A DNA stretch of 64,000 nucleotides from Catenulispora sp. EB89 (GTDB taxonomy: Bacteria > Actinomycetota > Actinomycetes > Streptomycetales > Catenulisporaceae). The stretch lies in contig NZ_JBGCCU010000002.1 of the NCBI RefSeq assembly GCF_041261445.1, positions 248,001 through 312,000 of the forward strand, read 5' to 3'. This document shows, one piece after another, positions 1,065 through 32,582 of the stretch (its first letter is position 1; the number at the start of each line of letters is the position of its first letter). The position numbers were made by a program, and so were the translations under genes. The notes below the pieces were generated by a model. That model made no database searches. It had not been told where the DNA came from and saw only the letters and a list, made by a program, of their open reading frames with translations.

Positions 1065-1589
1065 GTGAGGGTTCTGAGGGTTCTGATGGCGACGGCGAGC
1101 GCCCTGCCGCTGGCGGTGGCTGTGGCGACGGGTACGGCGATTCCGGCGCGGGCCGAGGACAAACCCGCCAACCCGACAGTCCAACCCAACCCGGCCACCC
1201 CCGGCACCCAGGTCTGGGTCTACGACGCCAACGAATGCACAGCCCCCAGCGGCACCGCGACCTCCCAGGCCCTGACAGCCCCCATCGCCCTGGTCCCCCT
1301 GGCCAACATGACCGGCGGAGGCGGCACACTCCGCCAAGGCCTGCCCGCGGGCACGTACACCATCACCCTGCACTGCGGCAGCACCCTGACAGCCACCCTC
1401 CACGTCGACACCCACGGCACCACACACACCGCGGCCACCCCCACCGGCGCCGCCGCAACCGGCGACGGCTCCGCCGAAGACCACCTCGGCATAGGCGACG
1501 CAGCAGTCGGCAGCGCATTCCTCATAGGCGGCCTCGCCTTCGCCACCGCCTCCTTCATCCGCCGCCGCCGCGCCACCCCGCGCGGATGA
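1065..1589 (+). CDS. Secreted, C-terminally membrane-anchored protein, sortase partner
   Basis: The 174-residue protein starts with GTG. It has a Sec signal peptide (hydrophobic stretch about residues 4-25, likely cleavage after ARA at 30), an extracellular domain of about 100 residues with two cysteines (C58 and C104) that could form a disulfide, and a C-terminal hydrophobic segment about 147-165 followed by RRRR. This is the outline of a cell-wall sorting signal, but no LPxTG or LAxTG motif precedes the membrane segment. Its stop overlaps the start of the sortase gene (ATGA), so the two are translationally coupled. Small anchored proteins of this kind often sit beside class F sortases in actinomycetes. 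Function unknown. Confidence 0.85.
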   Translation: MRVLRVLMATASALPLAVAVATGTAIPARAEDKPANPTVQPNPATPGTQVWVYDANECTAPSGTATSQALTAPIALVPLANMTGGGGTLRQGLPAGTYTITLHCGSTLTATLHVDTHGTTHTAATPTGAAATGDGSAEDHLGIGDAAVGSAFLIGGLAFATASFIRRRRATPRG

Positions 1590-3301
1590 GCGAACCCCCG
1601 GTGGTCGGCATCCCGATCGGCGGCGCCGTTACCGACCAGCAGCCCAAGCCGAGCCCGCACCCGGCATCGCGCGCCGAAGATACGCCGAGCCATTCACCAG
1701 CCAACTCCCGACCACGGGTGTCCAGCACCGGCAGCGGCACCGCGAGCCGCCTCCTTGCGGCCGCGCGCAACACCGGCGATCCACCGCAAGCCGCCGAGCC
1801 GCCTCCCGACAGCAGCCTGGCGCGAAGCCCGGGCACGCTCGCAAGCACGGGGCTACCAGGCGATGCTTCTCCGCACATCTCGCCAACGGCCGCACAGCCT
1901 GCCGAGCCCGGACGCCGCCCGGCCCGAGACCCTAGCTCGCTTGCACACACCGGACTGCCCAACGACACATTGCCCGACAGCTCACCAGCAGCCGCACAGC
2001 CCACCGAGCCCGGACGCCGCCCGGCCCGAGACCCCAACTCGCTGGCAGACACCGGACTGCGCAGCGACACATCGCCCGACAACTCGCCAACGGCCGCACA
2101 GCCCGCCAAGACCGGACGCAACCTGGCGGGCAGCCCCGGCACACTCGCAGACACCGGACTGCCCGGCGATGCCTTGCCGGACGGCTCTCCAGCAGCCGAG
2201 CAGCGCGCCGAGCCCAGCCGCAGCCTGGCGGGCGGCCCCGGCACGCTCGCAGACACCGGACTGCCCAGCAACACATCGCCCGACAACTCGCCAACGGCCG
2301 CACAACCCACCGAGCCCGGCCGCGGCCTGGCGCGAGCAGCCAAATCTCCTATCGGCCCCGAGCCGCACGGCGCGGCTCGCCTCAGTCGGCTGCCGCGAAC
2401 AGATGACTCATTCGCCGGACCATCCACCTTCGCCGGCGCTTCTGGCCGCACCGAGCTGCTGTGCCCTGCCGGTTCGTCGCCCGCGAACTTGCCGGCCGTC
2501 GGGCTCCCCCCATCAGCGCCGATCTTCCACACGATCGGCGAGCCCGGCCAGACCGCGGTGTCGGGCGCCGGTGTCATTGCACCCGGCTCGCACGTCGAGG
2601 TCGGCGTCCACGGCAGGGCGCGGCCGTCCGGCGGGGCACCCGCGCAGCTGGACTGTGCGGCGAGCGAGGTGCGGCATCCGGGGCGGGCGCTGGCTTTCGC
2701 GTCGGTGGTCGCCGTGGTCATCGGGTCCGGCTTCCTCATCCGTGCGCTGACTCTCGCCGATCCTGTGCCGCCGCCGTTGCCTCCGGCGTGGGCGGGGCGG
2801 GCTGTGGGTGCTGTCGGGCATCGGGCTGCGCCGCTGGGGTACGCGCGGCCGACGCGGGTCACGGTGGGGCGAGTGGGCATTCACGCCGATGTGCTCGCGG
2901 TGGGGTTGGCGCGGGATGGTGAGGTCGGGGTGCCGCCGGCTCGGGAGCCGTTGAAGGCTGCCTGGTACGACCGGGGTCCGGCGCCGGGGCAGGCGGGGCC
3001 CGCGGTGATCACCGGGCATGTGGATTCGCGGTTCGCGCCGGGGAATCGGGCGGCCTTCTACGAGCTGGGGGCGGTGCGGCCCGGGGATGATGTCGAGGTG
3101 GCTCGGGCTGATCGGCGGGTCGCGGTGTTCCGGGTGGACTCGGTCGCGCTGGTGCCGAAGACCGGGTTTCCGACGCGCGAGGTCTACGGCTCCACCGGCT
3201 ATGCGGCGCTGCGCCTGATCACGTGCGGTGGCCACTACGACCGGCGGACCGGCTACGCGGACAACGTCATCGTCTACGCGCACCTCGTCGGGTCGCGCTG
3301 A
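1586..3301 (+). CDS. Class F-type sortase with repeat-bearing N-terminal extension
   Basis: Sortases are membrane transpeptidases that cut sorting motifs and attach proteins to the cell wall. The catalytic domain occupies about residues 420-571 of 571. It contains ITGHVDS (His478) and LRLITCGG (Cys547), with arginines R553/R554 just after; the GHVDS and LITCGG signatures fit actinobacterial class F. A transmembrane helix lies at about 368-388. The N-terminal part of about 365 residues is far longer than usual, Pro/Ala/Ser-rich, and carries five exact-period 34-residue repeats with LAxTG (see the repeat entry). The start was set at 1586 because the ATG overlaps the upstream stop. The residues before the single membrane helix are predicted cytoplasmic (N-in topology), which bears on whether the repeats can meet the enzyme. 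Confidence 0.88.
   Translation: MSEPPVVGIPIGGAVTDQQPKPSPHPASRAEDTPSHSPANSRPRVSSTGSGTASRLLAAARNTGDPPQAAEPPPDSSLARSPGTLASTGLPGDASPHISPTAAQPAEPGRRPARDPSSLAHTGLPNDTLPDSSPAAAQPTEPGRRPARDPNSLADTGLRSDTSPDNSPTAAQPAKTGRNLAGSPGTLADTGLPGDALPDGSPAAEQRAEPSRSLAGGPGTLADTGLPSNTSPDNSPTAAQPTEPGRGLARAAKSPIGPEPHGAARLSRLPRTDDSFAGPSTFAGASGRTELLCPAGSSPANLPAVGLPPSAPIFHTIGEPGQTAVSGAGVIAPGSHVEVGVHGRARPSGGAPAQLDCAASEVRHPGRALAFASVVAVVIGSGFLIRALTLADPVPPPLPPAWAGRAVGAVGHRAAPLGYARPTRVTVGRVGIHADVLAVGLARDGEVGVPPAREPLKAAWYDRGPAPGQAGPAVITGHVDSRFAPGNRAAFYELGAVRPGDDVEVARADRRVAVFRVDSVALVPKTGFPTREVYGSTGYAALRLITCGGHYDRRTGYADNVIVYAHLVGSR
1826..2335 (+). repeat. Five 34-residue (102-nt) repeats carrying LAxTG
   Basis: LASTG, LAHTG, LADTG, LADTG and LADTG occur at residues 85, 119, 153, 187 and 221 of the sortase, exactly 34 residues apart. 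Each is followed by GL and, in four of five units, P. The units share a pattern of LAxTGLPxD, then SPxAAxQ, then a GR or SR-rich end. Long stretches are nearly identical at DNA level (for example around 1902-1932 and 2004-2034), which points to recent duplication. Confidence 0.93.
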
Positions 3302-6779: not shown

Positions 6780-8093
6780 ATGGCCGACATCGCGGCGCAC
6801 TCCGTTCCGCCGCCGACCCGGAAACAGCCCGAGCCCGTCTCGTTCTCGCGGCGGATACGCCCCTGGCAGTGGGTGACGCTGGACGCCTTGGTCGCGCTGA
6901 TGTTCCTGGTGCCGTTCGGATCGAGCCGATCGCGCGCGCCGGCGCATCAGAACCCGTGGCTGTCGCTGCTGGTCCTCGGCGTCACACTGGCTTTCCTGGC
7001 CCGCCGCCGCTTCCCGATGACCGTCTGCCTGCTCCTCACGGCCGCGACCGTCACCCTGGCCACCTCCGGCGCACCGTACGACTCCTACGGCCCCTTCGCG
7101 ATGATGTTCGCGCTCTACACCGTCGCGACGACCCGCTCCGGCCGTATCACCACCGTCGCCTCTGCCGCCGTCCTGGCGGCAGCCCTGGCCGTCCTGACCA
7201 GCCTGCACTACCCGCCCTCGGTCACGACGCTCAGCGGAGTCGCCATCGGCGTGGCGCCGTCCTTGACCGGCTACGCAGTACGCCAACAGAAGCAGTACCG
7301 CACAGCGATGGCCGCCGCACGCGCGCGCAAGATCGAAGCCGAAGTCACCTCCAGGATGGCCGACGAACGGCTGCGCATCGCCCGCGAACTGCACGACGTG
7401 GTGGCGCACGCACTCAGCTTGATCACCGTCCAAGCCGGAGTCGCCGTGTTCCGCCGGCACGAAGCCGACCAGATGCGCGCGACACTCGCCGCGATCGAGG
7501 AGACCGGCCGCAGCGCGATGATCGACATGCGCCAGTTGCTGGGGGTTCTCCGCGACACCTCGACTCCGACGCCAGACACCGACGAACTCCCCGCACCAGA
7601 CCGAAAGCCAGACCGAAAGCCACGCCAAGAACCAGACCGAAAACCACGCCAGGAACCAGACCAAGAGCCAGACCGCGAGCCAGACCGAGAACCGGACCGA
7701 GCACCGGTCCCCGACCTGCCGGACCTCGGCACCCTCATCTCCCAGGCGGCCCAAGCCGGCCTGCGCATCACCCTCCAGGAGGAGGGCGAGCGCCGCGTCA
7801 TCCCCGCAGCCATCGGCCTCGCGGTGTACCGCACCGTCCAGGAGTCCCTGACCAACATCCTGCGACACGCCCGAACCACCTCCGGCTCGGTCCTGCTCAC
7901 CTTCGCTCCGCACCAGCTGGCGGTCACCGTCGCCAATCCCCCACCGCCCGACGGCCTGCCACCGGCCCCGGCCGGAACGCCAGGACACGGCCTGCGCGGC
8001 ATGGCCGAGCGCGCCACACTGTTCGGCGGCACCTTCTCCGCAGGGCTTACGGCGGAAGGCGGATTCACGGTCACCGCGAGGTTCCCCGCATGA
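6780..8093 (+). CDS. Sensor histidine kinase, NarL-partner (HisKA_3) type
   Basis: The 437-residue protein has four or five N-terminal membrane segments (about residues 30-165), a dimerisation/phosphoacceptor motif RELHDVVAH with His205, and an HATPase domain from about 315 (QESLTNILRHA at 354-364, GHGLRGM at 402-408). Between the two catalytic parts lies an unusual charged tract (273-309) of repeated DRKP, RQEP and DREP units. The kinase is expected to sense an envelope signal and phosphorylate the coupled response regulator, whose ATG overlaps its stop. The pair lies divergent from the ABC-2 exporter operon, so cell-envelope or antibiotic stress sensing is likely but not proven. Confidence 0.93.
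   Translation: MADIAAHSVPPPTRKQPEPVSFSRRIRPWQWVTLDALVALMFLVPFGSSRSRAPAHQNPWLSLLVLGVTLAFLARRRFPMTVCLLLTAATVTLATSGAPYDSYGPFAMMFALYTVATTRSGRITTVASAAVLAAALAVLTSLHYPPSVTTLSGVAIGVAPSLTGYAVRQQKQYRTAMAAARARKIEAEVTSRMADERLRIARELHDVVAHALSLITVQAGVAVFRRHEADQMRATLAAIEETGRSAMIDMRQLLGVLRDTSTPTPDTDELPAPDRKPDRKPRQEPDRKPRQEPDQEPDREPDREPDRAPVPDLPDLGTLISQAAQAGLRITLQEEGERRVIPAAIGLAVYRTVQESLTNILRHARTTSGSVLLTFAPHQLAVTVANPPPPDGLPPAPAGTPGHGLRGMAERATLFGGTFSAGLTAEGGFTVTARFPA
7596..7706 (+). repeat. Charged DRKP/RQEP/DREP repeat tract in the kinase
   Basis: About 37 residues consist almost only of D, R, K, P, Q and E in 4-residue units, encoded by degenerate 12-nt repeats. The tract sits between the DHp helix and the ATPase domain, where family members usually have a short linker. 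Confidence 0.9.
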
Positions 8094-30700: not shown

Positions 30701-32582
30701 CTACCGCGAAGCCCAGCAGGAGGAGCGCGACGACCTGCTCCTCCCGCCGCCGGCGGGCCCCTTCGCGACCCCCGGCCAGCCCTCGCTGGGCTCGTCCTCG
30801 GGCGGCTTCAGCACCAACCCCGACTCGCTGTCGGCAAGCGGCCTGAACAACGACCTCGGCGCCGAACTCGCGGCGGGCGACCCCTACGCCGCCCCCGGCG
30901 AGGTGCGCATGACGCCGTTCGGCGGGCACCTGGACAACGGGTTCGGCAACCCGCAGCCGCCGAACCCCGTGGTCCCGCCCGGCGCGCCGGTCACCGACGC
31001 GCCTGTCGAGCCCCCGCGGTACGGCGGTCCGAGCGGGTTCGACCCCGGCGCCTCGGGCCAGTTCGCCGCACCGCCCGCACCGCCCGCACCGCCGGCGCCG
31101 ACCGGCACCGGCTACGGGAACGACGCCCCTTCCTTCGGCCGCCGTCCGATGGGCGAACCGCTGAGCGGCCCCGGCTTCGAAGCTCCGCAGTTCGAGGCCC
31201 CGCAGTTCGAGGCCCCGCAGTTCGAGGCTCCCCAGTTCGAAGCCCCGCAGTTCGAGGCCCCGCCTGCCCCCCCGGCGCCGACCGGCACCGGCTACGGCAA
31301 CGACGCCCCCTCGTTCGGCCGCCGCCCGATGGGCGAACCGCTCACCGGCCCCGGCTTCGAAGCCCCCGCGGCGTTCAACCCGAACGCCCCGGCGGACAAC
31401 GACCCGAACGACCCGATGGCAGGTCTGAGGAACCCGTTCGCGGCGGCGCCCGAAGCCCCGGCGAACACCGGAACCGGGTACGGCAACGACGCGCCGTCCT
31501 TCGGCCGCCGCCCGGTCGGCGAGCCGCTGTCCGGCCCCGGCTTCGAGACCCCGCAGTACCAGCCGCCGCAGTACGACGCTCCGCAGTACGAGACCCCGCA
31601 GTACGGCGAGCAGCCCGCCGCCGACCTGTCCGGCTCGGGCTTCCACACGCCGCTCGGCACCAACGCACCGGGCAACGGCATGGGCGACACCACCGGCTAC
31701 GCCCCCCCGGTCGGCGAACCACTCGCCGGTCCCGGCGCGCCGGACCCGCTGTCGTCCTCCGGCACCAACTACGCCGACTACCCGGACCCGCTCACCGCGC
31801 CGATCGAGTCGATCCCGATGGACCCGGCGGCGCACAACACCTCGATCTTCAACGCGATCGAGTCCGAGTGGTTCCGGGTGCGGGCCGGCGAGGGGACCGC
31901 CGTTCCGCAGAACGCTCTGGAGGTCGGCACCGTGCGTCCGGCCGAACCGGTCCGGCCGGCCGTGCCGGGACCGCGTTCAGAGCCCGCAGGAGACCCGCTG
32001 GCGGGCTCCGGCACCGGGTACCCGGCCGAGGCCCCGCAGGCCCCCGCCGAGCCCGTCCAGGCGGCTCCTGCCGCGCCCACCCCGGCCCCGCCGACCGCCC
32101 CCGAGGCCGGTCCCGGAGCCCCGACCCCGCCGGCGCCGTCGGCCGCCGACTCCGCGGTCGGCGGGGCGGCCCGGCCCGCCGCACCGCACGAGGAACCCAA
32201 GGAGCCCATGAACGACGACCAGAGCTCCGCGGGACAGGCCTGGCAGTCGCCGGGCGACGACGGATGGAAGGCCGCCCAGGTGGTCAGCAAGCCGGTCGCG
32301 GCCGGGCTGACCCCCAAGGGCCTGCCCAAGCGCGTCCCGCGGTCCAACCTGGTGCCCGGCTCGGCGGACGGCAGCGGCGCCGCCAAGACCGCGCCCTCGC
32401 CGATCCCGGCGCGCTCGGCCGAGGCCGTGCGCTCCCGCCTGGCCAGCTTCCACAATGGGCTGCGCCAGGGCCGCGACGCCGCCGGCACCCCCGGCGAGTC
32501 GCAGCCCGCCGATCCCGCCAACCCCACCGCGTCCGACGGCCCGGCCGCCTTCGGTGCTCCTGAGCCAGGAAAGCAGGACTGA
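27783..32582 (+). CDS. cvnA: Conservon sensor kinase CvnA (nitrate/nitrite-sensing-type ectodomain)
   Basis: The 1599-residue protein has a Pro-rich start, membrane helix 1 at about 91-113, an extracellular NIT-type domain, membrane helix 2 at about 409-430, HAMP, and an HATPase domain (LVAELLENATSFS near 618, DSGIGM near 657) ending near 728. An 870-residue Pro/Gly-rich tail follows and ends with the conserved PKGLPKRVPRSNLVPG and RSRLASFHNGLRQGRD blocks of CvnA proteins. Conservons pair such a kinase with roadblock, DUF742 and GTPase proteins and act like membrane-bound G-protein systems in development and metabolism. The GTG at 27783 has GTGAGGG close upstream. The tail is unusually long and contains repeats. 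Confidence 0.93.
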   Translation: MQTRPVSPRRPPAPFPERGAGAPPPGGSISDAAAGRTAPGELPRGARDGVLPGQRPVPTSQETEGSGGHVPPPPPPTASANRFAPRNWRVRTRLVVLVIVPLVATIFGAAARIVQQVGNVQTYDHAKTMAAAASPLSDLIDSLQDERDVSIEMMAFRAPTGNTDSATLTNLTTRMATQRKTTDRATAVMQPVLNKIDGSYPADTLAAIADAKANMTGVPALHQAVDGAYSNPLSVFDQYNKVLDSLDGLYEFVAADAGDQQLINDARSLADLGKMTETTSRERGFLTTLAVSIDPNQNQDNLARLQGLISDLASTRSEFKTVATAQMQQSLSDTVDVGDTFTGANQYLTTIDDKLANNDVSDAGDQLVPGSVYLQYNELLGRYKQVRTEQAAALVQRADSLANSARNTMYLNIGIIIGVLLVVSVATALIARSLVRPLRVLQNTALEIAGNRLPEMVRRLRDADGSEPIEPISPIALSSTDEVGQVARAFDEVHREAVRLATEQAMLRNNVNAMFTNLSRRSQSLVQRQLRLIDELENAEQDPDQLASLFKLDHLATRMRRNGENLLVLAGEEPGRRWSQPVPLIDVLRAAASEVEQYERVTLRDLPTVEVAGRAVNDVVHLVAELLENATSFSAPETKVSVTGNLLNTGGVMLEIEDSGIGMTPEELDDSNERLANPPVVDVAISRRMGLFVVGRLATRHGIQVRLRRSATGGITALVLVPAALLAGNLSDAPAVGGNRGTFGDIADTGQLPQLTSTGLPRRPAGAVRAEQRELAPGADLPQQAPPAQPPAPFSPFGGERAPVGGGDGDGWEDVSAAAPPYRNTDATPPGLAELLAETEAMTHGVTPVIREGDPGDPGSSGAFDRPEFVLPEPELDGRLAEALDGTATYDFRPNQAPSGPPAPPADPENTGQFRISAGSDDMRLDFRVGDGGPAMPPPPAPPAQPAPLNFSSSFDDLLPNIPDMEHTGEFAAYREAQQEERDDLLLPPPAGPFATPGQPSLGSSSGGFSTNPDSLSASGLNNDLGAELAAGDPYAAPGEVRMTPFGGHLDNGFGNPQPPNPVVPPGAPVTDAPVEPPRYGGPSGFDPGASGQFAAPPAPPAPPAPTGTGYGNDAPSFGRRPMGEPLSGPGFEAPQFEAPQFEAPQFEAPQFEAPQFEAPPAPPAPTGTGYGNDAPSFGRRPMGEPLTGPGFEAPAAFNPNAPADNDPNDPMAGLRNPFAAAPEAPANTGTGYGNDAPSFGRRPVGEPLSGPGFETPQYQPPQYDAPQYETPQYGEQPAADLSGSGFHTPLGTNAPGNGMGDTTGYAPPVGEPLAGPGAPDPLSSSGTNYADYPDPLTAPIESIPMDPAAHNTSIFNAIESEWFRVRAGEGTAVPQNALEVGTVRPAEPVRPAVPGPRSEPAGDPLAGSGTGYPAEAPQAPAEPVQAAPAAPTPAPPTAPEAGPGAPTPPAPSAADSAVGGAARPAAPHEEPKEPMNDDQSSAGQAWQSPGDDGWKAAQVVSKPVAAGLTPKGLPKRVPRSNLVPGSADGSGAAKTAPSPIPARSAEAVRSRLASFHNGLRQGRDAAGTPGESQPADPANPTASDGPAAFGAPEPGKQD
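31101..31620 (+). repeat. Repeats in the CvnA tail
   Basis: A unit TGTGYGNDAPSFGRRP(M/V)GEPL recurs at about residues 1107, 1167 and 1229. Between the first two, QFEAP is repeated five times in a row (15-nt units, about 31190-31263). PQY(D/E)xP units follow the third. The repeats are in frame and may vary between strains. Confidence 0.9.

Follow-up and report, generated by a model that had tools for sequence, protein, structure and literature searches.

Five LAxTG motifs in the N-terminal extension of a Catenulispora class F sortase are very probably a by-product of tandem duplication

The window, that is, the whole stretch of 64,000 nucleotides analysed here, corresponds to C2:248001-312000 of an 11.9-Mb Catenulispora genome. 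Close to its start lie a sortase gene and, immediately upstream and overlapping it, the gene of a putative partner protein. Their features are as follows:
1065..1589, forward strand: partner gene, 174 aa, with a signal-peptide-like start, a hydrophobic stretch and an RRRR end (sequence reading)
1586..3301, forward strand: class F sortase, 571 aa, with an N-terminal hydrophilic extension of ~365 residues (NF033748, PF04203)
1586..1639, forward strand: N-terminal anchor MSEPPVVGIPIGGAVTDQ, recognisable in the window and in seven orthologues, weakest in the genome G009
1811..2320, forward strand: five 34-residue (102-bp) units, residues 76-245 (repeat and unit alignment)
1838..1852, forward strand: LASTG, unit 1 (motif scan)
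1940..1954, forward strand: LAHTG, unit 2 (motif scan)
2042..2056, forward strand: LADTG, unit 3 (motif scan)
2144..2158, forward strand: LADTG, unit 4 (motif scan)
2246..2260, forward strand: LADTG, unit 5 (motif scan)
2519..2605, forward strand: conserved, predicted cytoplasmic segment PIFHTIGE ... SHVEVG, residues 312-340, in 7/8 proteins
2681..2761, forward strand: only predicted transmembrane helix, about residues 366-392 (hydropathy; helix 365-389 in a low-confidence model)
2825..3289, forward strand: class F catalytic domain, residues 414-568, including H478 and C547 (NF033748, alignment)

The protein matches the class F profile NF033748 with 186 bits versus a cut-off of 166 (E 3.3e-55), which assigns it to this class, and the class E model is absent from its sortase matches at E <= 1. 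Residues H478 and C547, which we take to be the catalytic His and Cys of the sortase, show no variation among seven aligned sequences. When sequence spacing was compared in the same seven sequences, no Arg was found among the invariant positions downstream of C547. An Asn, N560 (window 3263-3265), is also invariant among them and lies 13 residues past C547; by spacing alone, without a structural alignment, this is the offset of Arg197 from Cys184 in SrtA. Arg197 forms part of the S. aureus SrtA triad, as stated in PMC5148588. When the catalytic domain was compared by sequence with solved structures, nothing matched at E <= 0.001. In the window's genome there are 12 sortase-domain matches. The class F model matches at least seven places with E <= 1e-20, at least six of them above its cut-off, and the three other sortase matches that were checked all exceed the class E cut-off. 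Judged by its sequence, this Catenulispora gene encodes an actinobacterial class F sortase of the ordinary kind, with predicted transpeptidase activity.

The original prediction, that LAxTG occurs five times in this sortase at an exact 34-residue period, holds: the motifs stand at residues 85, 119, 153, 187 and 221 of the sortase frame and start exactly 34 codons apart (nt 1838, 1940, 2042, 2144 and 2246). Tandem Repeats Finder placed a 102-bp unit at 1812-2336, with 5.1 copies, 76% matches and a score of 537, and unit 5 is followed by the start of a sixth, decayed unit. The tandem array itself is far beyond chance, and the five motif copies amount to about one event, the copying of a single unit, and not to five independent ones. 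No convincing further copy of the array was found in its own genome or in 13 other genomes of the family, with up to 150 candidates scored per genome. One match in its own genome had an E value of 0.17 and contained a stop, and a match in the genome G013 had an E value of 0.0013 and two stops. A mobile or dispersed repeat was considered and rejected on these weak, stop-bearing matches among the candidates scored.

Two other repeats were seen in the window. A tandem-repeat linker, PDRKPRQEPDRKPRQEPDQEPDREPDREPDR, is encoded at 7595-7705 in the frame ending at 8093, which codes for a histidine-kinase-like protein (labelled by reading its sequence), and 15-bp repeats coding for FEAPQ lie at 31176-31263 in another frame. 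Therefore, growth of repeats in coding DNA is not limited to the sortase in this window.

Orthologues were searched in the 13 other genomes of the family. Seven genomes (G005-G009, G012 and G013) contain an orthologue with 74-96% identity over the helix and the catalytic domain; the best matches reached 49% and 47% in two genomes of the same genus (81 and 77% complete) and 36-52% in four genomes from other genera. A search for LAxTG in the N-termini of related sortases, as had been proposed, showed that the motif is absent in 7/7 orthologues, and neither LAxTG nor LPxTG occurs anywhere in these proteins. L[AP]xTG was likewise found ahead of the most hydrophobic window in none of 55 other sortase frames. 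These came from 54 other loci and were mostly the best-scoring ones, with two frames ending at the locus edge, and in a few of the proteins the most hydrophobic window is not the helix adjoining the sortase domain. Tail length, measured up to PPPxPPxWA, is 394 residues in the window and 177, 769, 178, 175, 204, 194 and 92 residues in the orthologues. Tails of class F sortases outside the genus are inflated by the use of stop-to-stop frames, and several of the long ones resemble sequence of another frame.

Two short stretches of the tail are shared. In the window and the seven orthologues the start of the tail is recognisable as MSEPxVVGIPIGxAV or a close variant, and a segment of the type PIFHxIGE...SHxEVGV precedes the membrane in 7/8 proteins, G009 being the exception; in G005 this segment is amplified. 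Of the named relatives found, Catenulispora rubra is the nearest; it is sister to the window in the catalytic-domain tree (support 0.994) and has 90% DNA identity. Between the two, synonymous changes number 2 in residues 1-24 and 6 in residues 309-362, against 5 and 17 amino-acid changes respectively; given these changes in the wider blocks, constraint is apparent in the short tail motifs only. The helix and catalytic domain differ chiefly in third positions, with 9, 2 and 51 changes at codon positions 1, 2 and 3 (209 codons), whereas the alignable linker varies at every codon position, with 23, 17 and 34 changes over 68 codons, in an uncertain alignment.

The sortase ATG at 1586 overlaps the stop of the partner gene as ATGA, and because this overlap holds in 8/8 cases (window plus seven orthologues), it supports that the tail is translated. 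It could be argued instead that translation truly begins close to the membrane helix and that the array is nothing but open-frame DNA of a GC-rich genome, as the GC content is flat across the codon positions of the array (0.73, 0.72 and 0.75) and GC-rich DNA of this kind leaves several frames open, including frames on the opposite strand. Such a late start is nevertheless very unlikely: in addition to the overlap, the N-terminal anchor is recognisable, the frame has been maintained although the tails range from 92 to 769 residues, and differences between the units are lowest at second codon positions (89, 54 and 100 for positions 1, 2 and 3).

The partner frame itself is found upstream of the sortase in 8/8 cases, the copy in G007 being cut at the contig end. 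The C-terminal part of the protein, GDGSAEDHLGIGDAAxGSAF...RRRR, is strongly conserved; neither LPxTG nor LAxTG is present in it or in the rest of the window's partner protein, and this protein has no Pfam or NCBIfam matches. From its sequence, the partner is a possible non-canonical class F substrate. The neighbours of SrtF1 and SrtF4 in Actinoplanes missouriensis are of the same type, with a signal peptide, a membrane region, a basic end and no pentapeptide in the description given in PMC13251363, whose authors suggest that the neighbours of such sortases may be their substrates. In G005 (L049), the first part of the partner apparently lies in another frame; either a broken gene or an indel in the sequence could account for this.

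Windows of 19 residues with a mean hydropathy above 1.6 start only at residues 366-374 of the sortase, and the maximum before residue 361 is 0.98. This agrees with the claim that the extension precedes a single membrane helix (about residues 366-392), with nothing similarly hydrophobic earlier. The charges flanking the helix (two basic and two acidic before it, one of each after it) do not decide its orientation. Sortase active sites are extracellular, and since the sortase domain must act outside, the tail is predicted to lie inside; it should be cytoplasmic, as had been proposed. The in silico fold that had been suggested was run on the whole protein with seven sequences and gave a mean pLDDT of 39.9. 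In this model, which is of low confidence throughout, nothing upstream of residue 365 is assigned secondary structure and a helix spans 365-389. This is weakly in line with an unstructured tail, but the catalytic domain was poorly modelled too. The tail is probably of low complexity and disordered.

LAxTG is described as the class E cell wall sorting signal in PMC5148588 and PMC13251363. In a pattern scan of the window's genome, four proteins carry LAHTG or LAFTG followed by a hydrophobic stretch and a basic end. The model NF041528 (strep_LAETG), which served for finding candidates, gave nine matches in this genome, none of them above the cut-off and 4/9 at loci with the full signal pattern; matches below the cut-off were also obtained in 10/14 control genomes. 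The five copies in the sortase (residues 85-225 of 571) are identical to class E sorting signals as far as the pentapeptide text is concerned, but they are N-terminal and predicted to be cytoplasmic, and they are followed by neither a hydrophobic stretch nor a basic cluster (19-residue mean hydropathy at most 0.98 before residue 361). The helix comes after the motifs, which are thus predicted to be inside if the catalytic domain is outside. Because of this predicted location and the missing hydrophobic and basic parts, the motifs of the array are most likely neither sorting signals nor recognised by any sortase. The fit of the pentapeptides, as text, to the class E consensus could suggest that they are self-substrates, with the tail exported and then cut or anchored outside by a class E sortase. 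We regard this as extremely unlikely, since residues 1-360 contain no signal-peptide-like stretch, the signal parts are missing behind the motifs, and a tail outside would bring the catalytic domain inside.

The origin of the array can be approached through C. rubra, whose tail contains one unrepeated segment with 37/48 nt identical to array unit 4. The other four units match it at 29-33 positions, and the best of 200 codon-shuffled tails, used as a control, reached 31 matches. The segment reads TDPLAGTELPGDSLPS, while unit 4 reads PGTLADTGLPGDALPD, and LAGTEL stands in place of LAxTGL. This single matching unit suggests that the repeat unit is probably older than its amplification, and that LAxTG was either gained on the line of the window or lost in C. 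rubra. The tail of G005 carries arrays of 213 bp x 5.9 and 27 bp x 11.9 (71-aa and 9-aa units) without LAxTG. Its 71-aa unit copies the juxtamembrane segment GPVFxxIGE...SHxE, and its arrays derive from other parts of the tail than that of the window. At 769 residues, with ~8 copies of the juxtamembrane segment, this tail (observed at L049 1871-2192 and 2168-3411) is longer and odder than the one in the window; the ~8 copies include the original, and some are decayed. Orthologues that keep the repeats and lose LAxTG had been named as evidence against a meaning of the motif, and this is largely what was found, with tandem repeats without LAxTG in G005 and the motif in 0/7 orthologues. As to this particular 34-residue array, which no orthologue has, the comparison applies to the single unit of C. 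rubra only.

From composition, LAxTG is expected 0.032 times in the tail of the window and 0.10 times when the tails of the seven orthologues are added. A single chance origin somewhere among the eight tails is mildly unlikely, though unremarkable, and the remaining copies would have arisen through copying. Among the five units, 12/34 columns do not vary; the L, A, T and G of the motif and the L after it are among them. LA.TGL is identical in 5/5 units, where its codons show five synonymous changes and no amino-acid change; this pattern is partly circular, because the seven other invariant columns likewise show synonymous changes only (seven). A block shaped like LA.TGL was obtained in 7.8% of the column permutations (block permutation P = 0.078). 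A Fisher test of synonymous versus amino-acid changes for LA.TGL (P = 0.0068) was discarded as circular, for it sets invariant columns against the rest. The invariance of LA.TGL is the one result that points, weakly, to a constrained motif; the array is known from one genome.

This invariance would fit a functional cytoplasmic docking site or decoy that binds a second protein, for example a factor acting on substrates before export, and couples the class F to the class E pathway. The genome has three class E sortases above the cut-off and at least four proteins with LAxTG signals. However, LAxTG is absent from the seven orthologues, the homologous unit of C. rubra reads LAGTEL, sortase active sites are extracellular, and we know of no cytoplasmic reader of LAxTG. 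The roles as decoy, regulator or docking array that had been raised are not upheld by the orthologues; docking and decoy functions for the array have little support, and a coupling of this kind is very improbable.

Of the readings offered in the original prediction, a chance result of repeat growth is the one favoured by the absence of the motif in 7/7 orthologues, by LAGTEL in C. rubra and by the G005 arrays without LAxTG. We consider it very probable that the LAxTG motifs arose as a by-product when a segment was duplicated in tandem within a cytoplasmic extension that is hypervariable and probably disordered. The extension would vary through gain and loss of tandem repeats; an ancestral unit with LAxTG, a motif either acquired on the window's line or lost from C. 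rubra, would have been multiplied by copying, and in this genome the 102-bp segment would have been duplicated to five copies. We infer this order of events (unit, LAxTG, amplification) from the comparisons above. The tail would probably act as a flexible tether, and a partner in the cytoplasm or the membrane may bind to its conserved ends (VGIPIG; PIFHxIGE/SHxEVGV), by analogy with what has been speculated for SrtE1. A stronger version, in which the tail serves as a cytoplasmic arm for multivalent docking and its modules are amplified in each lineage (LA.TGL five times here, PIFxxIGE...SHxE ~8 times in G005) so that copy number tunes the recruitment of a partner, is unlikely. If the motifs are a by-product of duplication, a striking motif array can stem from one unit copied in a hypervariable tail, orthologues can quickly settle whether such an array is meaningful, and the short conserved segments flanking a repeat-prone linker are the place to seek a partner.

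In the open-licence literature, as far as titles and the starts of abstracts go, no sortase was found described with sorting motifs arranged in an array. In pilus class C sortases, the lid is a substrate mimic located next to the active site, on the outer side of the membrane. The array is similar in that a part of the sortase possibly resembles its own substrate, but it is predicted to be on the opposite side of the membrane. The roles of class F sortases are given as unknown in PMC13251363. The four class F domains of A. missouriensis described there start at residues 40-120, so that their tails are short, unlike the long tail here, and deletion of all four gave no phenotype. A precedent for a long sequence preceding the sortase domain is the class E enzyme SrtE of the same organism, with 792 aa and the domain at 575-775 (PMC13251363). 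The closest comparison is with Streptomyces coelicolor SrtE1 (class E), for which PMC5148588 reports a presumed cytoplasmic extension that varies in sequence and also in length (about 100-200 aa); the roughly 25 residues ahead of the helix are well conserved. Deletion of residues 15-79 abolished its function in vivo, although instability was not excluded, and the authors speculate that the extension binds a partner (PMC5148588). In both proteins, a long hydrophilic N-terminal extension, here of about 365 residues, is followed by a single membrane helix; in contrast to SrtE1, the tail described here belongs to a class F enzyme, carries tandem repeats and is longer, as is also the case in G005. 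In form, the tail resembles the SrtE1 extension, with which it is compared without being counted as a member of that type, because the enzyme is of class F and not of class E.
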